Part shown: positions 6,525 to 23,964 of the stretch, in pieces | Layout: every line of letters starts with the position of its first letter | How positions within the stretch are numbered: the stretch's first letter is position 1 | NCBI RefSeq assembly: GCF_006152065.1 | Contig: NZ_VDFW01000001.1 | Span: forward strand, 62,001-126,000 | DNA: 64,000 nt | Reading direction: 5' to 3' | Source: Amycolatopsis alkalitolerans | GTDB lineage: Bacteria > Actinomycetota > Actinomycetes > Mycobacteriales > Pseudonocardiaceae | Made by a program: the position numbers and the translations under genes | The notes under the pieces: generated by a model | Told to the model about the DNA's origin: nothing | The model's database searches: none | What the model saw: the letters and a program-made list of their open reading frames with translations, nothing else

Positions 6525-6595
6525 GTGACCTCCCTCAGTCCTCGCAACTGTCGAACTTTAGCACTTGGTCCACAAGCAGTCGCAGAGGACAGCGG

Positions 6596-7690: not shown

Positions 7691-7717
7691 GGGCGTGTCG
7701 GCGAATCGGAGGCTAGC

Positions 7718-9007: not shown

Positions 9008-9080
9008 GTGCGAATTGAGCGGCGAACGGATCGTCGTTGCCCGGTTTCGCCCGCCATGTCGACGATCACGCTGCCTGATC

Positions 9081-9878
9081 TCATCCCCTCGAGGCCCGTG
9101 GCGTCTCGGGGACGACCACCGTCCCGCCGTCCACCACGATCGTGGCTCCGGTGGTACTGGCAGACCGGTCCGAAAGGAGAAACACGATGGCGGCGGCGAC
9201 TTCGTCCGGCTCGGACGGGCGGCCCAGGGGGACCGTGCTGTCGAGGATCTTCCTTGCCTCCGCTGGGGCGAGGCCGTCTTGCTCGCTGAGGCGTTCGACC
9301 CGCCGCTTGTATCGATCGGTCGCCGTCGTGCCGGGGACGACGGTGTTGACCCGGATCTTCCGCGGGGCGAGCGCGGCCGCGTAGTGCGTGGACAGCGCTT
9401 CCACGGCCGCATTGATGGCGCTCACGTGGGGCGACCGGGGCCAGTAGCGCTTCGACGCGATTCCCGAGATATTGACGACGCTCCCACCCTCGGGGAGGTG
9501 TTCGAGCGCTGCCTGTACGACGGCCTCATAGCCGAGGAGCTTGAGTTCGAACAGATCGGTCCACGCGGCCCTGTCCGGGTGGTCGAGATCGATGGAGAAC
9601 GCGGACGCGTTGTTGACGACGCCGTCCAGCGAGCCAAACCGCTCAACAGCGGCGGCCACCGCCATGCGCGCGCCATCAGGCTGCCGCAGGTCAGCCCGCA
9701 CGAACCCGGCCCGCGGATGCTCGCCCAATTCGGCAGCCGCCGTCTCGATCGACGAGGTGGTCCGCGCCGCGACGGTCACCCGCGCACCGTCTTCGAGCAG
9801 CAGCCGGGCGGCGGCCAGGCCGATCCCACGGGTGCCTCCGGTGACCAGATACGACCGGTTGCTGATCCCGAGATCCAT
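9081..9878 (-). CDS. SDR-family protein lacking the usual YxxxK catalytic pair
   Basis: The 265-residue protein is a clear short-chain dehydrogenase fold: TGGTRGIGLAAARLL nucleotide loop (13-27), NNAS at 89-92 and SVVNISGIASK. At the position where SDR enzymes carry YSASKAAV, this protein reads VSAINAAV, so both the tyrosine (Val152) and lysine (Asn156) are replaced. It may use a different mechanism, bind without catalysing, or be a scaffold-type paralogue. It is convergent with the PrpD gene and faces the operator-rich 9.9-10.2 kb gap. The SDR at 18.3-19.1 kb keeps the canonical residues, so this is not a general feature of the cluster. Confidence 0.78.
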   Translation of the reverse strand: MDLGISNRSYLVTGGTRGIGLAAARLLLEDGARVTVAARTTSSIETAAAELGEHPRAGFVRADLRQPDGARMAVAAAVERFGSLDGVVNNASAFSIDLDHPDRAAWTDLFELKLLGYEAVVQAALEHLPEGGSVVNISGIASKRYWPRSPHVSAINAAVEALSTHYAAALAPRKIRVNTVVPGTTATDRYKRRVERLSEQDGLAPAEARKILDSTVPLGRPSEPDEVAAAIVFLLSDRSASTTGATIVVDGGTVVVPETPRASRG

Positions 9879-10001
9879 TACGACCCCCCACCGACGCGGC
9901 GCACTGCCTCGGCCGCCGCCAACCGGATGTTCCGTCGAGTCTCTCGACTGTTATCGATGGTCACTTCTTCTCCTTGGCCTGCCGCACCGTCGACGCGTAA
10001 C

Positions 10002-10027
10002 GTTGGACATTAATCTGCATGTCCAAC
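10002..10027. promoter_or_regulatory. Perfect 9-bp inverted repeat, probable GntR operator
   Basis: GTTGGACAT and ATGTCCAAC are exact reverse complements separated by 8 bp. The right half resembles the elements ATGTTGAAT (6610-6618) and ATGTCGAAC (22338-22330, minus strand) at the other two promoters of the catabolic region, each likewise preceded at 8-9 bp by a TTGACA-like left half. This is the most symmetrical version of that motif and therefore the best candidate binding site. Confidence 0.6.
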
Positions 10028-10099
10028 ATCTGTCAACAGCGGTTGATCCGGAGACCGTGCGACCTGGTGCGTTGTGCTTCACGTCATATCTCCTTGACG

Positions 10100-10115
10100 T
10101 TCACATTTATGTGAA
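10100..10115. promoter_or_regulatory. Perfect 16-bp palindrome upstream of the isochorismatase-like gene
   Basis: TTCACAT and ATGTGAA flank a TT dinucleotide, giving 7-bp perfect arms 117 bp before the isochorismatase-like start. It differs from the GTTGGACAT repeat 73 bp away, so a second regulator may act here. No matching second copy was found elsewhere in the window. Confidence 0.4.
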
Positions 10116-10231
10116 GGTTCTGAACTGGGGTCATGCGGCAGAGTCCTCATTGACAAGGAGAGCGAATATTGGACAATTGCCCAGGTGTGTGAACGTGCGC
10201 CATTCGTGGTCCCGTCGTCGAGGAGGAAGAA

Positions 10232-10927
10232 GTGAGTGCAGTGAGCAAGCCGTGGGTCGGCGCCATCCCCGACGAGGACATCGCGAGCTTCGGGCGCGGG
10301 TTCGACCGCCAGGACCGCCCGATGGCAGCCGGCGTGCGCCCCGCGGTGCTGGTGGTCGACATGACTCGCGCGTTCGTCGACTCCACCTACGCGACCGGCT
10401 GGAGTGCGACCGGCTACCCCGCGGTGGACGCGAATGTGGAATTGCTCGGCGCGGCCAGGCAAGCACAGGTGCCGATCTTCTTCACCAAGGGCTACCCGGA
10501 GCAGGACGACCAGCTGCAGCCCGCCGAGCGCGGCCGCTGGAAGTCCAATGGCGCTCCCGCTCCACTGCCGGAGGGCACGCCCCCCGGGGATGTCATCGTC
10601 GAGAGCCTGGGTCCGCAGCCGGGTGACATTGTCGTCGACAAGGGCACGAGGCCCAGCGGGTTCTTCGGCACGCCCCTCATTTCCTACCTCGTTCATGCAG
10701 GATGCGACACCGTCATCGTCACTGGCATGACGACCAGTGGATGTGTGCGAGCCACCGTGCTGGACGCTTTCCAGTACAACTTCCACGTCCTGATCCCGTT
10801 CGAGTGCTCGGCAGACCGGAGCCAGATCTCGCACAAGGTCAGCCTCTTCGACATGCACATGAAGTACGCGGACGTGATCAGTCTCAACGAGACGATCGAC
10901 TACCTCCAGAAACTGCCGGGCGCCTGA
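10232..10927 (+). CDS. Isochorismatase-family cysteine hydrolase
   Basis: This 231-residue alpha/beta hydrolase has the complete catalytic triad of the family: Asp43 in VVDMTRAF, Lys137 in VVDKGTR and nucleophile Cys171 in MTTSGCVRATV, with the Thr-Ser-Gly turn before the cysteine. Family members cleave amides or carbamoyl groups (N-carbamoylsarcosine amidase, nicotinamidase, ureidoacrylate hydrolase) or vinyl ethers. The long N-terminal part and GTRPSGFFGTPL segment resemble the N-carbamoylsarcosine amidase branch, so an amide substrate is likely. It starts with GTG behind an AGGAGGA site, and the deacetylase-like gene follows 31 bp later. Confidence 0.82.
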   Translation: MSAVSKPWVGAIPDEDIASFGRGFDRQDRPMAAGVRPAVLVVDMTRAFVDSTYATGWSATGYPAVDANVELLGAARQAQVPIFFTKGYPEQDDQLQPAERGRWKSNGAPAPLPEGTPPGDVIVESLGPQPGDIVVDKGTRPSGFFGTPLISYLVHAGCDTVIVTGMTTSGCVRATVLDAFQYNFHVLIPFECSADRSQISHKVSLFDMHMKYADVISLNETIDYLQKLPGA

Positions 10928-10958
10928 CACTCGCCACCTCGATTGGATTGAAGAACGC

Positions 10959-11822
10959 ATGGAGCACGAGCTGTACCCGTATTCCCCGATCGCCTCCAGG
11001 CCGCCGTTGAGCTTCCCCAACGGGGCCCGGCTGGCGTTCTACGCCGGGCTCAACATCGAACACTTCCGCATCGGCACCCCGTTTCCGGGCACCGCCGGTA
11101 CTGTGCCGGATCCGATGTCCTACGGGTGGCGGGACTACGGGAACCGGGTGGGCATCTGGCGACTGATGGATCTGTTCGACGACGTCGGGATTCGCGCAAC
11201 CGGCATCATCAATTCCGAGGTGTGCACCGAGTATCCGGAGATCATCAAAGCCGGCGTCGAACGGAACTGGGCGTGGGTGGCGCACGGGAAGACCAACTCG
11301 ATCTTCCAAGCGGGCATGGCCCCGGACGAGGAGGAGCAGTTCCTGGCGGAGATGTTCGCCACGCTCGACGCCTCGCTCCCAGCCCGCCCGCGCGGCTGGC
11401 TCGGCCCCGGCCTCAACGAGACGTTCACTACCCCGCGACTGCTCGCCGAGGCCGGCCTCACCTACCTCCTCGACTGGTGCTGCGACGATCAGCCGTTCCC
11501 GCTGAACATTCCGGGCATGCTTTCGGTGCCATACGGGATCGATGTCAACGACTACGTGCTGTTCACGTCGAATCCCGCCCTGACCGGTCCCGACTACGAG
11601 CGGATCGTCCTGGACCAGTTCGAGCAGCTACTCGACGACTCAGCCACCACCGGCCGCGTACTGGCCCTGCCGCTGCACACCTTCATCGTCGGGCAACCGT
11701 TCCGTGCCAAGTATCTTGCGCGGGTGTTGCGCGCGATCACTTCGACTCCCGAGGTCTGGGTCTGCACAGGCGACGACATCGCTGAGCACTATGCGAGCAT
11801 CGGACCGGAACAAGCCACCTGA
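10959..11822 (+). CDS. Polysaccharide deacetylase-family protein (PuuE/allantoinase-like)
   Basis: This 287-residue protein shows the layout of the cytoplasmic PuuE-like NodB-fold hydrolases: an early LAFYAGLNIEHF strand, SYGWRDYGNRVGIWRL, the IIKAGVERNWAWVAHGKTNS region and the GLNETFTTPRLLAEAGLTYLLDW segment. There is no signal peptide, so it should act inside the cell on a small molecule and not on cell-wall glycans. It is paired with the amidase-like gene 31 bp upstream. Together the two could open and hydrolyse a cyclic amide, imide or ureide. The exact substrate is not deducible. Confidence 0.78.
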   Translation: MEHELYPYSPIASRPPLSFPNGARLAFYAGLNIEHFRIGTPFPGTAGTVPDPMSYGWRDYGNRVGIWRLMDLFDDVGIRATGIINSEVCTEYPEIIKAGVERNWAWVAHGKTNSIFQAGMAPDEEEQFLAEMFATLDASLPARPRGWLGPGLNETFTTPRLLAEAGLTYLLDWCCDDQPFPLNIPGMLSVPYGIDVNDYVLFTSNPALTGPDYERIVLDQFEQLLDDSATTGRVLALPLHTFIVGQPFRAKYLARVLRAITSTPEVWVCTGDDIAEHYASIGPEQAT

Positions 11823-11839
11823 GCACTTGTAGACGGACT

Positions 11840-11874
11840 GCGGAGGTGTGGGCGTTCCTGCCTCACACCTCCGC
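11840..11874. terminator. Bidirectional terminator between convergent genes
   Basis: GCGGAGGTGTG and CACACCTCCGC form a perfect 11-bp GC-rich stem with a 13-nt loop. It lies 18 bp after the deacetylase-like stop codon and 20 bp beyond the stop of the convergent CoA-transferase-family gene, so it can end transcription from both sides. There is no long T-run, as is common for terminators in high-GC actinomycetes. Confidence 0.7.
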
Positions 11875-11893
11875 GATGCCGGTAGCGGGAACT

Positions 11894-13018
11894 TCAGCGA
11901 GGCGACCAGACGGCTCCGGTGGGCAACGGGTCGAGCGCCGGGTAGCCGAGCGCACCGGGCGGCCGGCGCAGCGCGGAGTCCACGGGGCTCGGTAACGTGC
12001 CGACATCGAATCCCTCACCGATGAGCCGGTCGGTCGAATCCGTGTCCACCAGCCCGGATTCGACCGCCTCATCGAACGTGGCGACCACGACAGCACAGAT
12101 ATCCTCGCCGTCGAACACGGTGCGCCAGTGTTCAGCGGTGTGGGCGCCGATGCGCCTGGTCATCTCGGCGATGATCTCCTTTTCCCGGCCGCGTTCGTCG
12201 AGATATTCGGTCGGCAGATCCACCAGTGTGGCAAGCCGCTCCCAGAACTTGTCCTCCAGCGCCGCGACGGCCACGTGCCGCCCGTCCGACGTGCCGTAGA
12301 CCTGGTAACGCGGGCTGCCACCGGTGAGCAGTTCCTGACCCGGCACAGGCCATCCGCCGCCGCCCTGGTGAGTGGCGAAATACCCGTAGGCCAGCAGTTG
12401 CAGGTTATGGGTTATCGAGACGTCGAGGTGGCACCCGGCGCCGGTGGCGTCGCGCTGTCGTAGCGCGAGCAAGATGTTCATCACCGCCGGATAGGTTCCG
12501 GCGGCGATGTCGGCGAGCACTGTCGGTGGCAGCGGCGGTGTGCCCGTGCCGTCGGCGACGACGCCGAGCAAGCCCATCTCGGCCAGATAGTTCAGGTCGT
12601 GCCCGGCGCGAGCCGCGTTCGGCCCGTGCTGCCCGTACCCCGTGATCGAGCAGTAGATCACGCCAGGGTTGGCCGCGCGCACCTGGTCGTAGCCCAAGCC
12701 GAGCCGGTCGGTGACCCCAGGACGGAACTGCTCGACCACCACATCGGCTTTCGCCGCCAGCGCGAGCACCCGATCCCGCTCGGCCACGTTCTTGAGGTCG
12801 GCCGCATAGGCGCGCTTCCCGCGGTTGAGCACGGCGTAGTTGGCACTGGTGCCGCCCAGTCTGGGCTGGTACGTGCGCATCTCGTCGCCGCGCCCCGGTC
12901 GTTCGATCTTGATCACCTCGGCGCCGGATTCGGCCAGCAGCAGGGTCGCGAGAGGGCCGGGCAACAGGGTCGACAGATCCAGCACGCGCACCCCGGAAAG
13001 GGGACGGAGGGCGGTCAC
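11894..13018 (-). CDS. CaiB/BaiF-family protein, alpha-methylacyl-CoA racemase-like
   Basis: This 374-residue family III CoA-transferase fold begins LSGVRVLDLSTLLPGPLATLL. The segment GHDLNYLAEMG with His140-Asp141, and LTGGSPRYQVYGTSDGRHVAVAALE, are typical of the alpha-methylacyl-CoA racemase branch, which epimerises 2-methylacyl-CoAs instead of moving CoA. It is the last gene of the ten-gene acyl-CoA operon; its ATG overlaps the stop of the ligase gene. Epimerising an alpha-branched or ring-bearing acyl-CoA before dehydrogenation would fit the context. A true CoA-transferase role is the alternative. Confidence 0.78.
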   Translation of the reverse strand: MTALRPLSGVRVLDLSTLLPGPLATLLLAESGAEVIKIERPGRGDEMRTYQPRLGGTSANYAVLNRGKRAYAADLKNVAERDRVLALAAKADVVVEQFRPGVTDRLGLGYDQVRAANPGVIYCSITGYGQHGPNAARAGHDLNYLAEMGLLGVVADGTGTPPLPPTVLADIAAGTYPAVMNILLALRQRDATGAGCHLDVSITHNLQLLAYGYFATHQGGGGWPVPGQELLTGGSPRYQVYGTSDGRHVAVAALEDKFWERLATLVDLPTEYLDERGREKEIIAEMTRRIGAHTAEHWRTVFDGEDICAVVVATFDEAVESGLVDTDSTDRLIGEGFDVGTLPSPVDSALRRPPGALGYPALDPLPTGAVWSPR

Positions 13019-14709
13019 TTCGGCGCCTCGCTCCCGCGGGGCAGCCCGCCCTGGTCGGCTGCGACGAGTCCGCGGAGCTTGAACTTCTGGATCTTTCCGC
13101 TCTGCGTCGTCGGCAGCTCGTCGAGCAGCACGAGCCGCTCAGGCAGGTAGTGTTTGGACAGTCCGCGCGCCAGCAGGTAGTCACACAGCGCGGGCAGATC
13201 CAGGGTGCTGCCGGCGCGTGTGACGAGCACGGCACACGCCCGTTCGCCCAACCGCTCATCCGGGTAGCCGACGAGCGCCGCGTTGATCACCGCCGGGTGG
13301 TCGAAGAGCAGGGTCTCCACATCGGTCACCGGGATGTTCTCACCGCCCCGGATGATGATGTCCTTGCTGCGTCCACGAAGGGACAGCCAGCCGTGCTCGT
13401 CGATGCTCGCGGTGTCACCGGTTTTCAACCAGAGGCCGGGCAGGAACGACTCGTCCGTCGCATCTGGACGGTCGTAGTAGCCGAGCACCACGCCCGGGCC
13501 ACGCATCAGCAGGTGACCGGTCACGCCGACCGGAACATCGGCGCCCGAAGCGTCGACGACCCGCACCTGGGAGCCTGCGAAGATCGAACCGTCGGTGCCC
13601 TGGATCTGCGCCGGCTCCGCGGGCGTGCAGCAGCTCATGATGCTGCACTCGGTCATGCCCCAGGCCGGTGCGATGTACGCGCCGAGCGCTTCGCCCGCTT
13701 TCGCCGGCAGGGTCCTCGGGACCGAGGACCCTGCGATGACCAGGCATTCGAGTGGGCAGTCCGGATCATCGGCGAGCGGGGTGCGCATCATGTCCTGCAG
13801 GAACGTGGGCGCGCCGAAGAACGCGGTCACCCCTTCGTCGCGGATCACCCGGACGCCCCAGTTGGGCTCCCACCGGTCCACGTACACGCCGGTGCCCGCG
13901 AGATAGACGGTGAACAGGATCCCCCACACGTACCCGGTGTGATGCCCGACGGGCGAGGCGACCAGTTGGCGCATCGGGTCGCCGAACACCGTGGGCCCCA
14001 CGTGATCGGCAAGGGCCTGCACCGGGTAGAGCAGGGTGTCGTGGGTGTGCATAGCGCCTTTCGGCTCACCGGTGGTGCCCGAGGTGAAACCCAGATAGCA
14101 CAGCTCACCCGAGTCGCGCGGGTCAAAAGATCGGGTGGGCACATCGACAAACGAGGTCCACGCGTGCTCGCCCGGACCGAGCGCGGCCCCGTCGTCTCCG
14201 ATCACGACGATGTGTTCCAGGCTGGGGATCTCCTCGCGGAGGCGACGCGCGAGCGCGAGATGGTCGGTTGACCGCCACCGCCGGGGAATGACGAGCGCCT
14301 TTGCCTTCGCCCGCCGCAGGATCGCGATCATCTGGCGTTCCCCGTAGGAGACAGGGATGCCGGTGTAGACAGCACCGATCTCGTTGATGCCGAAGACGAG
14401 TGCGCAGTACTCGATCCAGTTCGGCAGCATGAGCGCGACGACGTCCCCCGCGCCGACGCCGATGGCGGCGAGCGCCGACGCGACGCGGTTGGCCTCGCCG
14501 TCGAATTCCCGATAGGTCAGGTGTGCTGTGGGCTCGCCCGCGCGGTGGCCGATCAGGGCGACGCGATCGGGATACCGGGCGGCGGCATCGGACAGCACGG
14601 ACCGGATCGTCTTGCCCGGCCACCAGCCGGCCGCCCGGAACTCCGCGGCATCGGCATCGGTGACCGGTGTGTACTGGCCGCGAAGTAGTTCCGCCAACGT
14701 CCGCGTCAT
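13015..14709 (-). CDS. Acyl-CoA synthetase (AMP-forming, ANL superfamily)
   Basis: This 564-residue ligase has the ATP/AMP signature YLGFTSGTTGEPKGAMH, the WGMTECS motif, the GLWLKTGDTASID hinge and the C-terminal SGKIQKFKLR with the catalytic lysine. It should activate a carboxylic acid with ATP and CoA through an acyl-adenylate. Its sequence is closest in feel to the cyclohexanecarboxylate/medium-chain acyl ligases (AliA type), but the acid is not identifiable. It overlaps both neighbours by 4 bp, placing it firmly in the operon and making it a candidate first step of the pathway. Confidence 0.85.
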   Translation of the reverse strand: MTRTLAELLRGQYTPVTDADAAEFRAAGWWPGKTIRSVLSDAAARYPDRVALIGHRAGEPTAHLTYREFDGEANRVASALAAIGVGAGDVVALMLPNWIEYCALVFGINEIGAVYTGIPVSYGERQMIAILRRAKAKALVIPRRWRSTDHLALARRLREEIPSLEHIVVIGDDGAALGPGEHAWTSFVDVPTRSFDPRDSGELCYLGFTSGTTGEPKGAMHTHDTLLYPVQALADHVGPTVFGDPMRQLVASPVGHHTGYVWGILFTVYLAGTGVYVDRWEPNWGVRVIRDEGVTAFFGAPTFLQDMMRTPLADDPDCPLECLVIAGSSVPRTLPAKAGEALGAYIAPAWGMTECSIMSCCTPAEPAQIQGTDGSIFAGSQVRVVDASGADVPVGVTGHLLMRGPGVVLGYYDRPDATDESFLPGLWLKTGDTASIDEHGWLSLRGRSKDIIIRGGENIPVTDVETLLFDHPAVINAALVGYPDERLGERACAVLVTRAGSTLDLPALCDYLLARGLSKHYLPERLVLLDELPTTQSGKIQKFKLRGLVAADQGGLPRGSEAPK

Positions 14710-15746
14710 GTCCTGTCCTTCCCGGAATCCGTCCTCGGATGTCCGGCTAGCTCGGACGCCGCGGCGCGGCGCGCGCCCGCCACGTCGGCTGCGGCGCGCA
14801 GCGAGACCGCGTCGCGAAGCAGGCGTTCCACCGGGTACTCGGCGAGGTACCCGTAGCCCCCGTGGGATTGAACCGCCAGGGCACAGGTGTCGATTGCCTG
14901 CTCACACAGCGAGTCGAGCACCGCCGCGGCCTGCCAGGCCGAGCAGTCCCGGGGTCGCAGCACCTGCCGCAACGCCGTCGTGGCCGCGCCCGAGGACAGG
15001 AACAAGGCGTCGCGCACTGTCGGCAAGGCGGTAAGCGGTGCGCCGAACTGTTCACGTTGCGCGCTGTAGGAGAGCGCGGCCTCTGCCGCAGCGTCCGCGA
15101 TTCCCGCGGCGATCGCCGCCGCTCCGAGCCGCAGCCGGATCCGTGCCGCGGTCGTGTCGACACCGGCTCGGGTCACGTCCGCTTCCCGCACCGCCTCGGT
15201 CGTCTCGGCGGACACGGTCAGCGCACCGTCGAGGCCGGTGCGCCGCAAAGGCTCGAACCGCAACGCCTCGGCGGGGATGACCCGGGCCGAACCTTCACCG
15301 AGCAGGATGACGTGTGGTCGCTCGCCGGCCGGATCCAGCCGGTCGATCCGTCCCGACAGCCACCCGTCTCGTGCCGTCATGTGCACCACCGCCGACGACT
15401 GGTCGAGCACCGCCACCGCCGAGTCACCCGCCCGGATAGCGGCGGAGAGTTCGCTGTCGCCGACAACGTCCACCGCCGCATGAGCCTGAACCGAAGCCCA
15501 GGCGAGGGCGGCCCAGCTCCGGCCGAGACGGGCGAAGGCAATGGCGGCGAGCTCGTCACCCGCAGGATCGCCATCCATCGTCGCGCCCAGAGTCCACACA
15601 CCGAGCTCAGCCAGGCGCCGCCGGAGGACCGCGATGTCAGCAGGATGCTCGTCGGCGGGCAGGTGGCCGGCGTCCGCGACGACGGCGGAGAGCATGTCCT
15701 GCAGATCGGTCTGCTCCGTGGTCAGCGCCGGCGCGTGCCGGGTCAC
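14706..15746 (-). CDS. Acyl-CoA dehydrogenase, divergent short form
   Basis: The protein is 346 residues, shorter than the usual 380-400. The C-terminal domain is recognisable (SAQREQFGAPLTALPTVRDAL and HGGYGYLAEYPVERLLRDA), while the N-terminal and middle domains are weakly conserved and Ala-rich. Enzymes of this kind often pair with a canonical acyl-CoA dehydrogenase as alpha/beta subunits, as in steroid and cyclic-acid catabolism of actinobacteria; the partner could be the gene at 19059-20288. I start it at the GTG at 15746, which overlaps the upstream hydrolase stop (GTGA). Confidence 0.75.
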   Translation of the reverse strand: MTRHAPALTTEQTDLQDMLSAVVADAGHLPADEHPADIAVLRRRLAELGVWTLGATMDGDPAGDELAAIAFARLGRSWAALAWASVQAHAAVDVVGDSELSAAIRAGDSAVAVLDQSSAVVHMTARDGWLSGRIDRLDPAGERPHVILLGEGSARVIPAEALRFEPLRRTGLDGALTVSAETTEAVREADVTRAGVDTTAARIRLRLGAAAIAAGIADAAAEAALSYSAQREQFGAPLTALPTVRDALFLSSGAATTALRQVLRPRDCSAWQAAAVLDSLCEQAIDTCALAVQSHGGYGYLAEYPVERLLRDAVSLRAAADVAGARRAAASELAGHPRTDSGKDRT

Positions 15747-16522
15747 GACCAGAACCTTTCCGGATCGGGTTGCCGCCGCTCGGCGAAGGCGTCGTTCACC
15801 TCGTGCGCTTCCTTCGTGGTGAGGTACACGCTGAGGTACTGGTCGTGCGCCATCCTGGCCTGCCCGGACACGCCGTTGTGCCGGCCGGAGAACGCCGACT
15901 TCAACGCGCCGAGTGCCATCGGGCTGCGGCTGGTGAGCTCCCTCGCGACCTCGGCCGCGCGTGCCGGCAGCTCGGCCGCGGGCACGACCTCGTTGACCAG
16001 TCCCATGTGCAGCGCCTGCTGGGCGGAGTACTTGCGGTTGAGGTACCACATCTCCTTCGCGCGCTTGCGGCCGACGGTGTCTTCCAGGTACCAGCTGCCG
16101 TATCCGGCGTCGAAGCTGCCCACCATGGGACCGACCTGGCGGAACACGGCGTGGTCTGCGGCGATGGACAGGTCGCACACGGTGTGCAGCACGTTCCCGC
16201 CACCGACCGCGAACCCGTTGACCGCGGCCACGATCGGCTTCGGGATCGTGTCGATCGCCTGGTAGACGTCGACGATCGGCAACACCTGGGACTGGTCGAG
16301 CGAGGTGATCTCGTCGTGTTCCCCGCCGATACAGAAGAACTTCTCACCGGTTCCGGTGAGCACCGCGGCCCGCGACGCGGGATCGAGGCGGAACCGCTGC
16401 AGCGCGTCGAACAGTTCCACGCACGTCTGGTGGCGGAACTTGTTGCCCGCCTCCGGCCGGTCGATCCTGATCGTCACGACCGGACCATCCGTGGCGACGG
16501 CGATATCGGTGTACTCGATCAT
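15743..16522 (-). CDS. Crotonase-fold ring hydrolase, BadI/MenB-like
   Basis: This 259-residue crotonase has the oxyanion-hole strand FFCIGGEHDE (residues 62-71), NGFAVGGGNVLHTVCDL, and crucially MVGSFDAGYGSWYLEDTVG (133-151) with KEMWYLNRKYSAQQALHMGLVNEVVP. The GSFDAGYG motif and the C-terminal NDAFAERRQPDPERF are the marks of naphthoyl-CoA synthase (MenB) and of 2-ketocyclohexanecarboxyl-CoA hydrolase (BadI), not of ordinary enoyl-CoA hydratases. With no menaquinone genes around and a full set of acyl-CoA oxidation genes beside it, a BadI-like hydrolytic ring cleavage is the better reading. Confidence 0.78.
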   Translation of the reverse strand: MIEYTDIAVATDGPVVTIRIDRPEAGNKFRHQTCVELFDALQRFRLDPASRAAVLTGTGEKFFCIGGEHDEITSLDQSQVLPIVDVYQAIDTIPKPIVAAVNGFAVGGGNVLHTVCDLSIAADHAVFRQVGPMVGSFDAGYGSWYLEDTVGRKRAKEMWYLNRKYSAQQALHMGLVNEVVPAAELPARAAEVARELTSRSPMALGALKSAFSGRHNGVSGQARMAHDQYLSVYLTTKEAHEVNDAFAERRQPDPERFWS

Positions 16523-17400
16523 GAAGCCTTCTCCTGGCCGGTACGGAATCCCTGCCCGGTCTTCTTGCCGTGAAATCCGGCGGCGACCATCTGCCGCAGC
16601 AACGGCGGCGGCGCGAACCGGGGATCCAGGGTCGCGTCGTAGGCACTCTGCGTCGCGTGGTTGTGCACGTCCAGCCCGATGAGATCGAGGAGTTCCAACG
16701 GGCCCAGCTTGTAACCCAGGCCGAGACGCATAGCCGTGTCGAGATCCTCGGCCGTGGCGAGATCCCGGTCGTACTCGGCGATCACGTCGTTGAGGTAGGG
16801 CATGAGCAGGTAGTTGACCAGGAACCCCGGGCGGTCCTTGACGACGACGGGCTCCTTGCCGAGTTCGCCGACAAAGGCCGCCAGCCGCTCGACGACGTCG
16901 GCGCCGGTCTGCAGGGCACGTACGACCTCGACGACCTTCATCAACGGTGCCGGGTTGAAGAAATGCAGGCCCGCGAAGCGCGCAGGATGGGGCACTGACG
17001 CGGCGAGATCGGTCACGGGCAGCGCCGAGGTGTTGGTCACGATCAGCGCGTCGCCGGCGACCACCTCCGCGACCGCGCGGAACAGCGCCCGCTTCACCTC
17101 GGCGCGCTCGGTCACCGCTTCGATCACCAAATCGCTGCCAGCAAGCTCGGCGGTCTGGGTGACGGGCCGGATACGGGCGAGCGTCTCGTCCCGCTTGGTC
17201 TCCGTGAGCTTGCCTCGTTCCACCCCGCCGTCCAGAAATGCCCGCAGCGCCGCGAGCCCGGCGTCGATCCTCTCCTGACTGGTTTCCAGGACCGTGACCT
17301 CGTGCCCCGTCATGGCGGTGACCTGTGCGATACCGGAACCCATCGTGCCCAGCCCCAGCACGGCCACTCGTTTGATGTCAGACATGCGATCCTCGCTCAC
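16519..17400 (-). CDS. 3-hydroxyacyl-CoA dehydrogenase (first of two)
   Basis: This 293-residue NAD-dependent dehydrogenase has the Rossmann loop GLGTMGSGIAQ, the catalytic histidine in HFFNPAPLMKVVEVV and the C-terminal RPGFLVNYLLMPYLN dimer domain. It oxidises a 3-hydroxyacyl-CoA to the 3-oxo form. Start and stop overlap both neighbours. A second, clearly homologous dehydrogenase lies immediately upstream; the pair probably arose by duplication and may handle different chain or ring substrates. An internal ATG at 17385 is an alternative start. Confidence 0.85.
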   Translation of the reverse strand: MSEDRMSDIKRVAVLGLGTMGSGIAQVTAMTGHEVTVLETSQERIDAGLAALRAFLDGGVERGKLTETKRDETLARIRPVTQTAELAGSDLVIEAVTERAEVKRALFRAVAEVVAGDALIVTNTSALPVTDLAASVPHPARFAGLHFFNPAPLMKVVEVVRALQTGADVVERLAAFVGELGKEPVVVKDRPGFLVNYLLMPYLNDVIAEYDRDLATAEDLDTAMRLGLGYKLGPLELLDLIGLDVHNHATQSAYDATLDPRFAPPPLLRQMVAAGFHGKKTGQGFRTGQEKAS

Positions 17401-18275
17401 GAACCGAACAGCCGGTTGTCGTCGTAGGTGTAGAAGCCGCGGCCGGTCTTGCGCCCGAGATCGCCCGCGGCGACCATCCGCTCGACCATGGGCGGCGGGA
17501 AGAAGCGCGGATCGCGCAACTGCTCGTAGAGCCGCGTAGCCACCTGCTGATGGATGTCCAAGCCGACCACATCGAGCAGCCTGAACGGTCCCATCGGATG
17601 ACCGAGCGCGCCCGTCACGGCGGTGTCGATGGACTCCTTGGTGCCGAGCCCCGCGTCAAGCGCGTGGATGCAGCTGTTCTCCCAAGGGATCAGGAAGCGG
17701 TTGACGATGAAGCCGGGGCGGTCCTTGGTGACCACGGTGGTCTTTCCCACCGCGGTCAGGAATTCCGTTGTCGCGTCGTGTGCCCAGCTTGCCGTGTGGC
17801 GGCCGTCGGCGACCTCGACCAGCTTCATCAGGGGCGCCGGGTTGCAGTAGTGGGTACCGACGACTCGCTCCGGTCGCCTCGATCCCGAAGCGATCGCGGT
17901 GACCGACAAGGTCGAGGTGTTGGTGTGGAACAGGGTGCGCTCGCCGACGATGCCGTCGAGCTCACCGAACAGCTGTTGCTTCGCGCCCAGGTCCTCGTAG
18001 ATCGCCTCGATCACCACCTCGGCGTCAGCGAGATCGGGCAGGTCGGTGGTTCCCTCGATCCTGGCGGCCGCCTGCCGGGCTTCCTCCGGCGCCATCTTGC
18101 CCAGCCGCACGCTCTTGTCCAGGAACCCGCGCACCGTGTCGAGACCGCGCTCGAGGTTGCTCTGGCTGAGGTCGTGGATGATGGTTCGACAGCCGGCGCG
18201 CACGGCGACGAGGGCGATTCCGGACCCCATGGTCCCGGCGCCGAGCACCGCCACGATGGGCTCTTTCGTTGTCAC
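17397..18275 (-). CDS. 3-hydroxyacyl-CoA dehydrogenase (second of two)
   Basis: This 292-residue enzyme shows GAGTMGSGIALVAVRAG, catalytic HYCNPAPLMKLVEVAD and DRPGFIVNRFLIPWEN, collinear with the adjacent paralogue. The start is set at the GTG at 18275 because AGGAG stands 8 nt upstream and the resulting length equals that of the paralogue. A longer reading from 18329 would add 18 residues without family similarity. It follows the SDR gene by 31 bp, the largest gap in this operon. Confidence 0.83.
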   Translation of the reverse strand: MTTKEPIVAVLGAGTMGSGIALVAVRAGCRTIIHDLSQSNLERGLDTVRGFLDKSVRLGKMAPEEARQAAARIEGTTDLPDLADAEVVIEAIYEDLGAKQQLFGELDGIVGERTLFHTNTSTLSVTAIASGSRRPERVVGTHYCNPAPLMKLVEVADGRHTASWAHDATTEFLTAVGKTTVVTKDRPGFIVNRFLIPWENSCIHALDAGLGTKESIDTAVTGALGHPMGPFRLLDVVGLDIHQQVATRLYEQLRDPRFFPPPMVERMVAAGDLGRKTGRGFYTYDDNRLFGS

Positions 18276-18306
18276 GTTGTTCACTCCTGTTCGGGGCTCG
18301 CGGTCC

Positions 18307-19062
18307 TCATCGGACAGATTGACCACCATCGATGACGATGGTTTCGCCGGTCACGAAGGCAGAGGCTTCTCCGGCAAGCAGGAGCAGCCACGGCGTGATT
18401 TCCGCCGGCTCGCCCATACGGCGTGCCGGGATCGCCTTGAGCACCCGCTCGGTCGCCTCCGCGTCGGCTCGCAACTCGGCGTTGAGCGGGGTGGCGAAGT
18501 AGCCGGGCGCCAGCGCGTTGACCGTGATGCCGTACCGAGCCCATTCGATCGCCATGGATTTGGTGAACGCGATCACTCCGGCCTTGGACGCCGAGTAGGC
18601 CGCATGATTGGCCACGCCCTGCAGGGCGAAGTTGGACGCGATGTTCACGATCTTGCCGGACCGCGCGGGCACCATGTACCGTCCGGCTGCCCTGGTGGCC
18701 AGGTAGACCCCGCGCAGGTTGGTCGCGATGACCCGGTCCCACTCCTCCGGTTCCTGCTCGAGCAGTGGTGTGCTCGCGACGATGCCGGAGTTGTTCACCA
18801 GCACGTCCAGCCGACCGAAGGCGTCCACAGTGGAATCCACGAGATGGTTCACCGCATCGGCGTCGGTGACGTCGGTCGGGCAGGCCAGCGCCTCCCGCCC
18901 GAGTTGTGCCTGCTCCTTGACGAACGTGTCCAGCTCCGCGGCGCTGCGGGCGGCCACGCACACCCGGGCGCCGGCCTCGGCCAGTGCCTCGGCCATGGCA
19001 CGGCCGAGCCCTCGCCCGGCCCCGGTGACGATGGCCACCTTGCCTTCGAGTGATGCCGTCAT
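18307..19062 (-). CDS. SDR-family hydroxyacyl-CoA/alcohol dehydrogenase (BadH/FabG-like)
   Basis: This 251-residue classical SDR has TGAGRGLGRAMAEAL, NNSG, and the canonical YSASKAGVIAF active site, with APGYFATPLN downstream. In alicyclic acid degradation an SDR of this type (BadH) oxidises the 2-hydroxycyclohexanecarboxyl-CoA that BadI then opens. The operon position between an acyl-CoA dehydrogenase and the hydroxyacyl-CoA dehydrogenases fits that step. A role as a generic 3-oxoacyl reductase cannot be excluded. Confidence 0.8.
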   Translation of the reverse strand: MTASLEGKVAIVTGAGRGLGRAMAEALAEAGARVCVAARSAAELDTFVKEQAQLGREALACPTDVTDADAVNHLVDSTVDAFGRLDVLVNNSGIVASTPLLEQEPEEWDRVIATNLRGVYLATRAAGRYMVPARSGKIVNIASNFALQGVANHAAYSASKAGVIAFTKSMAIEWARYGITVNALAPGYFATPLNAELRADAEATERVLKAIPARRMGEPAEITPWLLLLAGEASAFVTGETIVIDGGQSVR

Positions 19063-20288
19063 CGCAGGCCTCCCAAGGTACGCGCGGTGTCGCGGGCGAT
19101 GAGCAACCGCTGCACCTCATTCGTGCCGTCGTAGATCTGAGTCACCTTGGCGTCCCGCAGGCACCGCTCCACGCCGAGTTCGGCCAGGTCGCCGTAGGGC
19201 CCGAGGATGCGCATGGCTTCGCGGGCGGCATGCCAGCCGAGGTCGGTGCAGGACTGCTTCATCATGCCGATCTGCCCGGCCGACGGCGTTCCGGAGCGGT
19301 CGACCTGCCGAGCAACGCTGAAGAGCAGCAGCCGGCCCTGCAGGACCTGACCCCGCAACGTCGCGAGAGCGAACGCCTGCTCGTCCGGCAACCGCGATCC
19401 GTGCAGCCGGGTCAGCGCACGCAGCGTGCGCGCGTACGCCGCGCGCGCGATTCCCACTCCCTGTGCGGCCGCGCTGATCCGGGATTTGATCACCGAGTTC
19501 AGCACGACTCGCCAGCCGCCGCCGGGCTTTCCCAGCAGGTGATTCGCGGGTACCTCGACCTCGTCGAAGAAAAGTTCGGCGGTAGTCGACCCGTGCATGC
19601 CGAGTTTGGCCAACGGGGTGCCCCTGGATAGTCCCGGCCAGCGCCCGTCCAGCACGAAGGCGGTCACGCCGTCGCGACCGAGCGACCGGTCGATGGTGGC
19701 GAAGCAGATGATCACGTCGGCCTTGTCGCCCGTCGTGATGAACGTTTTGGCGCCACTGAGCCGGTACCCGTCCGGGTGTGGGGTGGCAACGGTCCGCAGG
19801 CTCGCCACGTCACTGCCGGCGTTCGGTTCGGTGATCCCGAGCGCGCCGTAGGTTTCGCCGCACAGCAGGCCCGGGATGTAGCGCCCGGCCAGCTCGTCCG
19901 ATCCCGCGATCATGATCGGGTACGCGGCGTGCATCTGTGTCATGTAGACAAGGGCCGTCGCGGCGCATCCCGCGCTGATCTCTTCCATCGCGGCGGCATA
20001 GGCGGTGTGGGTATCGCCTGTGCCGCCCAGGCGTTCCGGGAAGATCAACCCGGCCAGGCCGGCCTTGGCCAGCGCCTGGTAGCTCTCGTGCACGAACACG
20101 TGATCCCGATCCGCGGCGGCCGCCCGCGGCGCCACCTCGTGAGCCACCACGTCGCGCACCGCCGCCCGCACCGTCCGCTCTCGCTCGTCGAGCAGCGCGT
20201 CGGCGGCGGACTCGTCGAGCGCCTGGTGCAGTGCGAGATAAGCCTGGGGATCGCGGTCGATGTCCAGTGCCGCTGTCGCGATGGTCAT
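19059..20288 (-). CDS. Acyl-CoA dehydrogenase, canonical
   Basis: This 409-residue flavoenzyme has GALGITEPNAGSDVASLRT in the FAD domain, FFDEVEVPANHLLGKPGGGW, and the C-terminal YDGTNEVQRLLIARD, whose glutamate is the usual catalytic base. It should insert a 2,3-double bond into an acyl-CoA, passing electrons to ETF. The start and stop overlap the hydratase and SDR genes by 4 bp. It may pair with the divergent dehydrogenase at 14706-15746. Confidence 0.85.
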   Translation of the reverse strand: MTIATAALDIDRDPQAYLALHQALDESAADALLDERERTVRAAVRDVVAHEVAPRAAAADRDHVFVHESYQALAKAGLAGLIFPERLGGTGDTHTAYAAAMEEISAGCAATALVYMTQMHAAYPIMIAGSDELAGRYIPGLLCGETYGALGITEPNAGSDVASLRTVATPHPDGYRLSGAKTFITTGDKADVIICFATIDRSLGRDGVTAFVLDGRWPGLSRGTPLAKLGMHGSTTAELFFDEVEVPANHLLGKPGGGWRVVLNSVIKSRISAAAQGVGIARAAYARTLRALTRLHGSRLPDEQAFALATLRGQVLQGRLLLFSVARQVDRSGTPSAGQIGMMKQSCTDLGWHAAREAMRILGPYGDLAELGVERCLRDAKVTQIYDGTNEVQRLLIARDTARTLGGLR

Positions 20289-21073
20289 GCCCGCACCCCG
20301 AACTCCGGCCGGCGCTTCTGCTTGAACGCGGCGACCCCCTCGGTGGATTCGGAACCGCCGATCGCCATCGCCGCGAGCCTCGTCTCCAGCGCCAGACCGA
20401 CGTCAAGCGGGCTGTCCAGCCCGGCATCGACCGCGTCGAGAATCGCCCGGCAGGCCGCGGGGCCGCGCGTCGCGACTTCTCTTGCCACGTCCAGTGCGAA
20501 CGGCATCAGCTCGCCCGGCTCGACCGGGGGCGCGACCGCGATGCCGAGCCGATAGGCGCGGTTGGCGTCGATACGGTGACCGGTGAGCATCACGTGGCGC
20601 GCGACTGCGGGCCCGGCCACCCGGGCGAGGCGCTGCGTGCCGCCATACCCGGGAATCAGCCCGAGTCCGGCCTCGGGCAGCCCGAACGCCGCAGTTGTCG
20701 AGACGACCGCGAAGGAGCAGGCAAGTACCAGCTCAAAACCGCCACCGAGGGCAAGGCCGTTCACCGCGGCGATCACCGGCACGGGGGATCGTTCGATGCC
20801 ACGGATGATCGACTGGCCGGCGCGCATCAGGGGAGCTGCGTCCTCGGCGTCGAGGTTGGCCAGCTCGTCCAGGTCGGCGCCCGCACTGAACGCTTTTTCG
20901 CCCGTGCCCGTGAGCACGATGGCGCGCGTCGTTCCCGATGCGGCCAGCTCGGCGATCTGGTCGCCGAGCCGTTGCAGGATCGCCGAGTTCAGCGCATTGT
21001 GCACCGTCGGGCGATCGATCCGTACCGTGGCGATCGCACCATCGCGTTCCACGGCAATGAATCCCTCACTCAT
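20285..21073 (-). CDS. Enoyl-CoA hydratase/isomerase
   Basis: This 262-residue crotonase has EKAFSAGADLDEL, NGLALGGGFELVLACSFA and FGLPEAGLGLIPGYGGTQRL, in which the glutamate residues of active hydratases are present. It should hydrate the 2,3-enoyl-CoA formed by the acyl-CoA dehydrogenase (BadK-like step in an alicyclic pathway). I take the ATG at 21073, which overlaps the preceding CoA-transferase stop by 8 bp, over an upstream ATG at 21097 deep within that gene. Confidence 0.83.
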   Translation of the reverse strand: MSEGFIAVERDGAIATVRIDRPTVHNALNSAILQRLGDQIAELAASGTTRAIVLTGTGEKAFSAGADLDELANLDAEDAAPLMRAGQSIIRGIERSPVPVIAAVNGLALGGGFELVLACSFAVVSTTAAFGLPEAGLGLIPGYGGTQRLARVAGPAVARHVMLTGHRIDANRAYRLGIAVAPPVEPGELMPFALDVAREVATRGPAACRAILDAVDAGLDSPLDVGLALETRLAAMAIGGSESTEGVAAFKQKRRPEFGVRA

Positions 21074-22286
21074 CGCACTCCGTGTCCTTTGAATCACCGT
21101 CTTCGATCGCGCCTCGCTCGATCAGACGGGCGATCTCACTCTTGCTGAAGCCGTGTTCGGCCAGCACCTCGACCGTGTGCTCGCCGAGGTCGGGGAAGCG
21201 TGTGTTGCGCACCTCCGGTATCGAATCGAGCCGGAACGGGCTGCGCACGCTGCACATCGCCCCGTCCGTGCCGGGAACCGCGAGAAGGTTCTCGCGGGCC
21301 AGGACCTGCCGATCCGTGACCACTTCGGATAATCGCTGGACGAGCGAGCACGGGATGCCGGCGTCGGCGAGTACTCGCTGCCATTCGGCGGCTGTTCGCG
21401 TGGCAATCCGGGCTCCCACCAGGCCGACCAGTTCCTCGCGGTGGGCGCGCCGGCCGGCGTTGTCCACCAGGTCGGCCCGCTCCGCGAGATCGGGAAGGCC
21501 GATCGCGACACAGAATCGCCGCCACATGGCGTCGTTGCCGACCGCGATCACGAGATCGCGATCGGCCGCCGAGAACGACTGGTAGACGGCCAGCACCGAG
21601 TCCGCCCCTCCGCTCGGCGCTGGCTCCGGTTCTCCCGCGAGATAGGCGGCGATCCGAGGGGCCATCACGGCGAGATCGGCGTCGAGCAGGGACACGTCGA
21701 CCAGGTCGCCGACACCCTCTTCCCGCTGCCGTACCACCGCCGCACTGACGGCCAGAGCGGCGCACATGCCGGTCATCACATCGGAGAGCGCAGTCGACAC
21801 GCGCTGCGGCGAGTCGGCCTTGGCGCCGGTCACCGACATCAACCCGGATCGAGCCTGCGCGGCGAGATCGTAGCCGGGCAGGGTCCGGTCCGGACCGTCC
21901 AGCCCGAACCCCGACATGGCGCAGTAGATGAGGTGGGGAAAGTCCGCCCGAAGCCGTTCATGGTCGAGATCGAGGGCCTCCAGCTTGCCGGGGTTGAAGT
22001 TCTCCATGAACACGTCCGCCTTGCCGATCAGCGTGCGCAGCGTCGCCAACCCCTCCGGATCCCGCAAGTTGATCACGACGGACCGCTTGTTCCGGTTCGC
22101 GGAGGCGAACCACGCCGAAGCGGACCCGACGAACGGCGGACCCCACCACCGGGCGTCGTCTCCGGCGCCCGGCCGCTCCACCTTGATCACGTCGGCACCC
22201 AGATCAGCCAGGTACATGGATGCCGTCGGGCCCGCGTACGACGTCGTCGTGTCGACAACCTTGAGACCGGTGAGCGGGCCACCCAT
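21066..22286 (-). CDS. Family III CoA-transferase (CaiB/BaiF)
   Basis: This 406-residue protein begins GLKVVDTTTSYAGPTASMYL and has KVERPGAGDDARWWGPPF, RNKRSVVINLRD and the catalytic aspartate in PGYDLAAQARSG. This is the standard CoA-transferase branch that moves CoA from a donor acyl-CoA to a carboxylate. It is the first gene of the operon. The ATG at 22286 is chosen because GGGGGAGG stands a few bases upstream; an ATG at 22337 would place the start inside the promoter-like element. Confidence 0.8.
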   Translation of the reverse strand: MGGPLTGLKVVDTTTSYAGPTASMYLADLGADVIKVERPGAGDDARWWGPPFVGSASAWFASANRNKRSVVINLRDPEGLATLRTLIGKADVFMENFNPGKLEALDLDHERLRADFPHLIYCAMSGFGLDGPDRTLPGYDLAAQARSGLMSVTGAKADSPQRVSTALSDVMTGMCAALAVSAAVVRQREEGVGDLVDVSLLDADLAVMAPRIAAYLAGEPEPAPSGGADSVLAVYQSFSAADRDLVIAVGNDAMWRRFCVAIGLPDLAERADLVDNAGRRAHREELVGLVGARIATRTAAEWQRVLADAGIPCSLVQRLSEVVTDRQVLARENLLAVPGTDGAMCSVRSPFRLDSIPEVRNTRFPDLGEHTVEVLAEHGFSKSEIARLIERGAIEDGDSKDTECDE

Positions 22287-22323
22287 CGACGCCTCCCCCT
22301 GTCCTTTCACCCACATCCCCTGT

Positions 22324-22352
22324 ATATTGTTCGACATTTATCAGTGTGTCAA
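22324..22352 (-). promoter_or_regulatory. Candidate promoter/operator of the ten-gene acyl-CoA operon
   Basis: On the minus strand TTGACA (22352-22347) is followed after 17 bp by CAATAT (22329-22324), with TATACA just beyond. The element AAATGTCGAACAATA within it repeats almost exactly the AAATGTTGAATAATA that follows TTGACA at the 6.6-kb promoter. The box overlaps the stop codon of the transporter gene, giving the operon its own control although the two run in the same direction. Confidence 0.5.
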
Positions 22353-23692
22353 GACGTCGCCGTTTCCGCTCGCGGCTCGTTCTCCTCGGCGGGCCGTCCA
22401 ACCTGCCTGATGTCATCGCGATAGGACTCTCGCGCAACGAGGACCGCGATCACGGTCGCGATGCCGCCAACGATGATGTACACGGCCAACGGCCACGCAT
22501 TGCCCGCCAACGACACCAGCGCGGCAGCCACGAACGGCACCGGCCCACTCCACACCATGCTTCCGACCTGGTAACCGATCGCGGAACCGCTGTACCGCAA
22601 CCGCGTGTCGAAGAGTTCAGGCAGGAACGAGGCCATCGGGCCGTAGGTCAGCGTATGCACAACCGGGAGCGCAATCACCAGCGCGACGATGATTGCGATG
22701 GCGTTGCCCGTGTTCAGCAGCCAGAAGAACGGGAAGGCCGTCACCATGGCAAGCACGGCACCAGCGAGCAGGACAGGTCGACGGCCGTATCGGTCGGCGA
22801 GGACAGCCACCCGCGGAATGGTGAAAACCTGCACCAGCCCGGCGATACACACCGCCAGCAACATGGTGCCGCGCGTCGCGCCGGCTCGCTGGACGCCGTA
22901 GCTCAGCGCATACACGGCCGACAGATAGAACACCACACTGTTGACGGCCATCGAGAAGATCGCGATGAGCAGGGGCTTGCCGGCCCGGCGGACCACTTCG
23001 CCTGCCGGGAACCTCGACACCTCGCCGCGGTCGAGAACTGACTGGAACGCGGGCGACTCCGTCACCTTCAGCCGGATGTAGAGGCCCAGGATCACCAGAA
23101 CGGCGCTGGCCAGGAAGGGAATGCGCCAGCCCCAGCTCATCATCGCGCTCTGCGGCAGCAAACCGACGAGATAGAAGGACACCGTGGCCAGCACGAGCCC
23201 GGCCGGCACCCCCCGCTGCGGCCAGCTGCTGTAGAACGCCCGCCTCCCCGGCGGCGCGTGCTCGACAGCCATCAGGACGGCGCCGCTCCACTCGCCACCG
23301 ATGGCCACACCCTGCAGGACGCGGGACACAACCAGGAGAAGGGGGGCCCAGATTCCGATCTGCGCATAGGTCGGCAGCAACCCCACCATGGCTGTTCCGG
23401 TACCCATCATCACCAGACTCAGCACCAGCATCGCCTTGCGTCCGAGCCGGTCGCCGAAGTGGCCGAAGATGACCCCGCCCAGTGGTTTCGCGACGAACGC
23501 GACCGCGAACGTGGCGAACGCGGCGAGCGTGCCAGCCAGCGGATCCAGCGACGGGAAGAAGATCTTGTTGAAGACCAGCGCTGCGGCCGTGCTGAAGATG
23601 AAGAAGTCGAAGAACTCGATGACGGTGCCGATGAAGCTCGCGAAGGCGATCCTGCCGACCGGCACGCCGGAAGATGGGGTTCGACTAGCCAT
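22349..23692 (-). CDS. MFS transporter, metabolite:H+ symporter (MHS) family
   Basis: This 447-residue protein has 12 predicted membrane segments and opens with the MHS family signature SFIGTVIEFFDFFIFSTAAALVF, then PLGGVIFGHFGDRLGRKAML and GEWSGAVLMAVEHAPPGRR. MHS transporters (ShiA, ProP, KgtP types) take up carboxylates, betaines or aromatic/alicyclic acids with protons. Its place upstream of a CoA-activating catabolic operon makes it the likely uptake system for the acid that the operon degrades. A degenerate copy of the GTTGGAC repeat lies about 80 bp before its start. Confidence 0.83.
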   Translation of the reverse strand: MASRTPSSGVPVGRIAFASFIGTVIEFFDFFIFSTAAALVFNKIFFPSLDPLAGTLAAFATFAVAFVAKPLGGVIFGHFGDRLGRKAMLVLSLVMMGTGTAMVGLLPTYAQIGIWAPLLLVVSRVLQGVAIGGEWSGAVLMAVEHAPPGRRAFYSSWPQRGVPAGLVLATVSFYLVGLLPQSAMMSWGWRIPFLASAVLVILGLYIRLKVTESPAFQSVLDRGEVSRFPAGEVVRRAGKPLLIAIFSMAVNSVVFYLSAVYALSYGVQRAGATRGTMLLAVCIAGLVQVFTIPRVAVLADRYGRRPVLLAGAVLAMVTAFPFFWLLNTGNAIAIIVALVIALPVVHTLTYGPMASFLPELFDTRLRYSGSAIGYQVGSMVWSGPVPFVAAALVSLAGNAWPLAVYIIVGGIATVIAVLVARESYRDDIRQVGRPAEENEPRAETATS

Positions 23693-23964
23693 GATGCCGT
23701 CCTTCTGCTGATTCCCTGCACGTTCGTTGCATTAACGGAGAACCGTAGGTTATTCGTCCTTCATGTTCAAGGTCCAACCTTTAGCAGGCGCAGAGCGTTC
23801 CGGGCGTCCTGCGGATCTGACCGCGGATGAGGCTTGACCTTCTCACCGGTGTGATGGACCGGCCCACCGATCCCGTCAGCACGTGAGCGCATAACTGGCG
23901 GCCTTCGCGCCGTGCTCGGCGGTCACTCGCCAGAACTGGGTCAGGGCGCCTACACGATCCGGAT
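23693..23964. other. Intergenic region upstream of the MHS transporter
   Basis: The gap between the transporter start and the end of the phosphoglycerate-mutase-like remnant holds no convincing gene. Two short inverted repeats occur: AACC-GTA-GGTT at 23741-23751 and AAGGT-CCA-ACCTT at 23769-23781. The minus-strand reading GTTGGACCT (23778-23770) resembles the GTTGGACAT half-site at 10002. These may form the transporter's control region. Confidence 0.35.

Follow-up and report, generated by a model that had tools for sequence, protein, structure and literature searches.

The window analyzed here, a stretch of 64,000 nucleotides from Amycolatopsis alkalitolerans (contig NZ_VDFW01000001.1, positions 62,001 to 126,000 of the forward strand), carries a run of eleven co-directional genes of acyl-coenzyme A (acyl-CoA) metabolism, A to K, which extends on the minus strand from position 23692 to position 11894. 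An earlier note on this DNA had described these reading frames and protein families as overlapping genes behind an MHS transporter, and this observation is confirmed: all of them exist as described, gene A stands first in the unit, and nine of the ten junctions overlap, by 4 to 32 bases with the listed starts, with a gap of 11 bases between the transporter gene A and the first CoA-transferase gene B. Protein families were assigned with NCBIfam and Pfam models, and the nearest solved relatives were taken from the PDB, which gives the following genes.

22349-23692, minus strand: A, MHS family symporter (TIGR00883, 430 bits, slightly below the cut-off of 443.45)
21066-22337, minus strand: B, family III CoA-transferase (closest solved relative succinate--hydroxymethylglutarate CoA-transferase, 273 bits)
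20285-21097, minus strand: C, enoyl-CoA hydratase (NCBIfam, Pfam)
19059-20288, minus strand: D, acyl-CoA dehydrogenase, presumed catalytic α subunit (NCBIfam, Pfam, motifs)
18307-19062, minus strand: E, short-chain dehydrogenase (SDR; NCBIfam, Pfam)
17397-18329, minus strand: F, 3-hydroxyacyl-CoA dehydrogenase (NCBIfam, Pfam; PaaH-like models best)
16519-17400, minus strand: G, 3-hydroxyacyl-CoA dehydrogenase (NCBIfam, Pfam; PaaH-like models best)
15743-16522, minus strand: H, BadI/MenB-like crotonase of a third clade (tree, residues; GSFDAGYG present)
14706 to about 15752 (start uncertain), minus strand: I, divergent acyl-CoA dehydrogenase, presumed β subunit (motifs, structure model)
13015-14709, minus strand: J, AMP-forming acyl-CoA ligase (best model AliA)
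11894-13018, minus strand: K, racemase-like family III protein, racemase or transferase (Pfam CoA_transf_3)

The earlier note had taken these genes for the full AliA/AliB/BadK/BadH/BadI set of cyclohexanecarboxylate degradation, a claim that fails where it could be tested. The hydrolase H reached 216.5 bits with the badI model TIGR03210 (cut-off 467.6), D 111.8 bits with the AliB model (cut-off 575.35), and J 446.3 bits with the AliA model (cut-off 792.3), all far below cut-offs that our control, a bad-ali cluster on a Haematobacter plasmid, passes (BadI, 480.7; AliB, 606; AliA, 795.4 bits). The badI cut-off is a strict one, since two more BadI proteins from clusters of the bad-ali type in Marinobacter and Cupriavidus miss it (457 and 448 bits), and H scores about 230 bits lower than those two. 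H likewise stays below the cut-offs of two MenB models (253.6 against 342.7 and 267.5 against 380). For E, BadH (TIGR03206) was not among the best 25 models listed, the lowest of which scored 192.6 bits, and the SDR of the control reached 362 bits, itself below the cut-off of 431.2; for C, no BadK model stood among the 25 models listed. When the window's own genome is searched with TIGR03210, H comes out as the best match and stays below the cut-off.

The ligase, dehydrogenase, hydratase, SDR, and BadI-like hydrolase types are nonetheless common to the window and to the bad-ali clusters of R. palustris and Aromatoleum sp. CIB and the chcpca cluster of Rhodococcus aetherivorans BCP1. A genuine but divergent cyclohexanecarboxylate pathway to pimeloyl-CoA, finished by the dehydrogenase encoded at 54 kb, could draw on this identity of the five reaction types, on AliA being the best ligase model, and on bad-ali clusters being known in rhodococci (cited passages of PMC5906575 and PMC9795900). 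Given the low BadI, AliB, and AliA scores and the separate clade of H described below, we consider it highly doubtful. The window also adds CoA-transferase, racemase-like, paired hydroxyacyl-CoA dehydrogenase, and second dehydrogenase genes and has a GntR regulator, unlike the MarR/TetR regulators of bad-ali clusters; the actinobacterial ones are described, in the cited passages of PMC9795900, with a TetR-like regulator and without CaiB or paired hydroxyacyl-CoA dehydrogenase genes. As for the 54-kb protein, to which the earlier note had assigned the end of pimeloyl-CoA breakdown, its identity as a glutaryl-CoA dehydrogenase is well supported (closest to solved glutaryl-CoA dehydrogenases, 594.6 bits), but no finding ties it to the operon. 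The interpretation given in that note is thus partly supported: the five reaction types are consistent with the family content of a unit without a thiolase gene, as is the idea that a more complex ring acid is opened by hydrolysis.

The reading that we prefer, in which the operon would serve to degrade a cyclic carboxylic acid with H as the presumed ring hydrolase, starts from the position of H among the crotonases. A maximum-likelihood tree of 48 rows, which held 35 of the 83 H-type rows and left out R. palustris BadI and EchA20, united the 35 H-type proteins in one clade (support 100/100, stem 1.04), placed four BadI proteins in a separate clade (99/98) and four MenB proteins in another (100/99), and left two relatives outside. 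H, for which the earlier note had proposed this very comparison, falls in neither the BadI nor the MenB clade and is, in this tree, a third branch beside them. The next-best relative of H in its own genome (43% identity) was placed in the MenB clade, so that the genome has a predicted MenB of its own apart from H. A role of H in menaquinone synthesis, raised in the earlier note as a possible objection, is set aside on the grounds of this separate protein, though it sits on a long branch. Among 296 sampled genomes of the class, with eight candidates scored per genome, an H-type protein (E ≤1e-90) was found in four, the window's own included, and a BadI-like protein (E ≤1e-110), under the cut-off, in one.

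Conservation of individual residues was followed in an alignment of 83 H-type rows, 49 actinobacterial and 34 proteobacterial, near-identical loci included. H shares the fold family of MenB, and all 83 rows keep the counterparts of MenB Ser-161 and Asp-163; for MenB, the cited part of PMC3637252 describes Asp-163 as catalytically essential and a hydrogen bond between Tyr-97 and Tyr-258. Unlike MenB, H-type proteins lack the loop segment with the G-x-Y of MenB and BadI (deleted in 83/83), and the Tyr-258 column holds Leu in 82 rows and Arg in one. In the window's own H, the stretch from G67 to P82 is free of Tyr, and Leu occupies the Tyr-258 column. A clade-wide loss of both MenB tyrosines was considered and rejected: some Tyr is present in the loop of 51 of the 83 rows (17/49 actinobacterial, 34/34 proteobacterial), and one alignment puts it at the BadI Tyr, so that only the loss of Tyr-258 is general. 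Tyr87, Asp91, Arg128, Glu147, His215, and Arg223 are among the residues that never vary in H and are different in the rows of BadI and MenB. Tyr-258 is also missing in two unplaced rows outside the H clade, L108 and L109 (L numbers denote loci of relatives). The latter, on a Sphingomonas JE1 plasmid (L109, 4836-12837), is a BadI/MenB relative outside all three clades, and its cluster also contains CoA-transferase, acyl-CoA dehydrogenase, hydratase, MmgE/PrpD, and two NAD(P)-dependent oxidoreductase genes.

A second peculiarity of the operon concerns the two acyl-CoA dehydrogenases. D keeps the YDGTN motif with the base but no longer has the R-x-Q-F-G segment; in I, R-x-Q-F-G and GGYGY are retained and the base motif is absent. 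The exceptions are the D rows L020 and L021 (an unreadable stretch; a reading frame problem) and the I rows L009 and L022 (segment absent or broken). Eighty loci of relatives were surveyed, and all actinobacterial counts refer to the 47 best loci; 41 of these have both D and I, one has D alone, five have neither, and none has I alone. Proteobacterial clusters combine both features in a single protein in 21 of 22 dehydrogenases, the remaining one being cut short. Since the motifs are complementary, the two genes co-occur, and the proteobacterial counterparts hold both motifs, the "divergent second dehydrogenase" I looks like the β subunit of a heteromeric enzyme with D. The base in one protein, the contact motif for the ADP part of flavin adenine dinucleotide (FAD) in the other, and the pairing of the genes correspond to the α2β2 dehydrogenases of steroid catabolism, where one subunit has the base and the isoalloxazine site and the other contacts the FAD ADP (PMC11153573, in the part cited; the cited part of PMC8399759 gives the same division of labor). 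The model of I shows a full acyl-CoA dehydrogenase fold (mean predicted local distance difference test score, 89.9).

The cluster as a whole is conserved well beyond the window. In 42 of the 47 actinobacterial loci, B, C, F, G, and H are all present, which argues that the arrangement is not due to chance, and the complete order A to K of the window recurs in 8. Genes of the loci were called with a GC3 heuristic, so that counts of neighbor families are approximate. Proteobacteria have H homologues of 51 to 56% identity within rearranged clusters, and Rhodococcus opacus plasmids carry a minimal B, C, F, G, H form that adjoins a pair of other CoA-transferase genes. This pair, seen beside the reduced cluster of R. 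opacus B4 plasmid pROB02 (L097, 7133-8820), does not belong to family III and had no NCBIfam match at E 1e-40. In Celeribacter indicus (L110, 13051-14565), one hydroxyacyl-CoA dehydrogenase of 504 residues replaces F and the short second gene of other Proteobacteria, and in Cupriavidus basilensis (L099, 8539-8982), a gene for a type II 3-dehydroquinate dehydratase lies about 5 kb from the H gene. Genes for an HsaC-like extradiol dioxygenase and an HsaA-like monooxygenase flank the H cluster in L016 (2954-4216 and 11543-13000), and the same clusters are found in L017, L023, and L033, suggesting that these strains first remove an aromatic ring. L030 has a class I CoA-transferase gene whose cluster is also represented in L038 and L003. 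As the neighbors differ between loci, the core probably serves several ring acids.

These neighbors bear on a further alternative, in which the operon would belong to a steroid-like or terpenoid ring pathway and H would act on a fused or bulky ring like EchA20. Both EchA20 and ScdY are, like H, MenB-related crotonases, and a retro-Dieckmann ring opening has been proposed for them; EchA20 is the sole M. tuberculosis EchA to cluster with MenB (cited part of PMC5380842), and D and I share their α2β2 pattern with the heteromeric IpdE1-IpdE2 and ChsE of steroid degraders (PMC11153573 and PMC8399759, as far as cited). The Hsa-like neighbors and the class I CoA-transferase cluster of L030, L038, and L003 would fit as well. 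However, other steroid genes are absent from the window unit, with no HsaA-, HsaC-, or class I CoA-transferase-like gene between 5772 and 23692, and the HsaA/HsaC-like neighbors are confined to 4 of the 80 loci; we hold this alternative to be highly improbable.

K has racemases as its best PDB matches (185 to 186 bits), with one formyl-CoA transferase at 184.8 bits, and carries His140 and Asp170, a His/Asp pair of the racemase type. In M. tuberculosis MCR (α-methylacyl-CoA racemase), such a pair is spaced 30 residues apart. Among K rows of at least 55% identity, 25 of 29 show the racemase signature GHDxNY.

Several observations weigh against our preferred ring-acid reading. Leu at the Tyr-258 column means that H, a presumed ring hydrolase, may not perform retro-Claisen hydrolysis. 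Fold comparison of I ranks homomeric dehydrogenases above the steroid heteromers: among the best 50, chains of 6wy8 stand at 12 and 16 and 4x28 at 47, below homomers, and neither is among the 50 entries listed in a second ranking, so that the fold of I does not decide the heteromer question. GHDxNY drops to 1 of 17 K rows at 45 to 55% identity. The long form of the operator-like motif described below, WTGTTGGACMTT, has no exact match in the window's own genome, compared with 2 and 1 for the reversed control. Finally, no thiolase was found among the genes from 5772 to 23692 in NCBIfam and Pfam scans of the unit, but several relatives have a thiolase gene close to the cluster (family c11, 10/80 loci, one member scanned), which would suit ordinary β-oxidation.

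This last point leads to the β-oxidation of a branched linear (di)carboxylic acid, with H as a hydratase, isomerase, or thioester hydrolase. The absence of Tyr-258 from H, the similarity of B to dicarboxylate CoA-transferases, the PaaH-like models that best match F and G, and the thiolase genes of relatives all fit such a route, which we nevertheless regard as unlikely: the window unit has no thiolase, the hydratase role is already filled by C, and H keeps the Ser/Asp pair of MenB in 83/83 rows. β-Oxidation of linear fatty acids was set aside without being dismissed, the window unit having no thiolase gene though relatives have one nearby.

The unit extends further to the left than the earlier note had recognized, namely to position 5772, and includes the following features.

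5772-6524, minus strand: GntR/FCD regulator (Pfam GntR and FCD)
6749-7690, plus strand: β-hydroxyacid dehydrogenase of the 3-hydroxyisobutyrate type, linked accessory gene (Pfam; near the operon in L001, L040, L098/L115, and L116, 65-71%)
7718-9007, plus strand: MmgE/PrpD family protein, linked accessory gene (Pfam; in L001, L040, L115, and L116)
9081-9878, minus strand: SDR, linked accessory gene (NCBIfam; in L001, L040, L115, and L116, 70-74%)
10000-10029, no strand: two facing operator-like sites between the divergent genes 9081-9878 and 10232-10927 (perfect 9-base inverted repeat; motif matches)
10232-10927, plus strand: isochorismatase-family hydrolase, amidase-like (Pfam; closest solved N-carbamoylsarcosine amidohydrolase and others, 121 bits)
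10959-11822, plus strand: PuuE-like hydrolase of the polysaccharide deacetylase family, imidase-like (PuuE model 102 bits, cut-off 424.6; PDB PuuE 77-79 bits)
23770-23780, minus strand: operator-like site upstream of the operon (one mismatch to ATGTTGGACMT; similar sites upstream in relatives)

Homologues of the GntR/FCD regulator are present in 36 of the 47 actinobacterial loci (42.6 to 83.9% identity, 30 of them at least 60%). The genes at 6749, 7718, 9081, 10232, and 10959 accompany the operon, differently arranged, in L001 (5/5), a Streptomyces NBC_01727 plasmid (5), L116 (4), and L040 (4); the H cluster of an Aminobacter plasmid is likewise surrounded by genes of these five types, four of which match at 36 to 50% identity. 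Near most loci these accessory genes are absent, each occurring in 1 to 5 of the 47 within the fetched flanks. The 7718 protein has cis-aconitate decarboxylases and an epimerase as its closest solved structures (32.7 to 44.1 bits).

Several loci have a motif, ATGTTGGAC(A/C)T, ahead of the operon, and the window has sites of this kind at 10000, 10019, and 23770. The exact form TGTTGGAC precedes the operon in 12 of the 42 loci compared (14 hits, 0.34 expected), although these counts are not independent, since the motif was chosen from the same upstream regions. For the 42 loci, L017 was dropped as a duplicate of L016, as were loci without an upstream gene or with less than 150 bases upstream. 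The window, L001, L002, and L004 have the looser form only; with up to one mismatch, ATGTTGGACMT has three matches in the window, a number reached in 0 of 100 shuffles. A palindrome of two TTGGACA halves was discarded, as the window contains it no more often than shuffled sequence does (1 match, against a mean of 1.05 in shuffles). The GntR protein may regulate the operon via the operator-like sites.

The PuuE-like gene raises the question of an earlier substrate. It belongs to the sequence family of PuuE allantoinase and the cyclic imidase HxnM, with an amidase-like gene alongside, and PuuE relatives include cyclic imidases (PMC9304392 and PMC3084791, in the parts cited), the activity of the 10959 protein itself being a prediction. 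Of 44 H-bearing genomes, 13 have a PuuE-like homologue (E ≤1e-60), only one of which, that of L001, lies near an H-type gene; in one further H-bearing genome, about 17 kb separates the PuuE-like gene from a relative of H with 46% identity, and the remaining linkage is limited to the Streptomyces NBC_01727 and Aminobacter plasmid records. With linkage in 1 of 44 genomes, there is little to recommend an imide substrate across the clade, and given the low PuuE model score, it is only a guess that the window's version of the pathway starts from a cyclic imide or a related amide. Quite improbable, in our view, is the broader proposal of a pathway, shared by Actinomycetota and Pseudomonadota, that begins with the opening of a cyclic imide by a PuuE-like imidase and a half-amidase, continues with cleavage of the cycloaliphatic acid so formed by a MenB/BadI branch without Tyr-258 (in the window, without either MenB tyrosine), and in actinobacteria is fed by a split heteromeric dehydrogenase outside steroid catabolism.

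Taken together, the gene content, its conservation, the third clade, the complementary D/I motifs, and the linked accessory genes, all read from sequence, make it slightly more likely than not that the unit is a catabolic regulon under GntR control, that it degrades a cyclic carboxylic acid, and that its third-clade crotonase hydrolyzes the ring while its acyl-CoA dehydrogenase is split between two proteins; each chemical step, the D-I complex, and the regulation are what we infer from them. A would import the cyclic carboxylic acid, which in the window's version may first be released from a cyclic imide by the imidase-like and amidase-like enzymes, if the guess above holds. The acid would be converted to its CoA thioester by ligase J or by CoA-transferase B, reusing the CoA of the dicarboxylyl-CoA product, and its α carbon may be epimerized by K. 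Desaturation by an α2β2 dehydrogenase, with D as the catalytic and I as the FAD-ADP-binding subunit, would be followed by hydration by C and oxidation of the alcohol by E, F, or G, and H would hydrolyze the ring C-C bond of the cyclic β-ketoacyl-CoA to give an open-chain dicarboxylyl-CoA. Literature searches, whose coverage is thin for subscription journals, turned up no account of this cluster. If the proposal is true, the ring-cleaving crotonases include a third lineage whose active site is altered, and a set of genes called just "enoyl-CoA hydratase-related" in public records would be an unrecognized route to the opening of alicyclic acids. The split actinobacterial dehydrogenase and its one-protein proteobacterial counterparts would, moreover, make the origin of heteromeric acyl-CoA dehydrogenases testable.

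Two observations stand apart from the operon. At the left end of the window (113-4599), genes for an ABC transporter permease, a solute-binding protein, and a ROK family protein are apparently unrelated to it. On L116 (30754-31350), a plasmid database predicts an OXA-type β-lactamase at 100% identity for a gene whose record says hypothetical protein.

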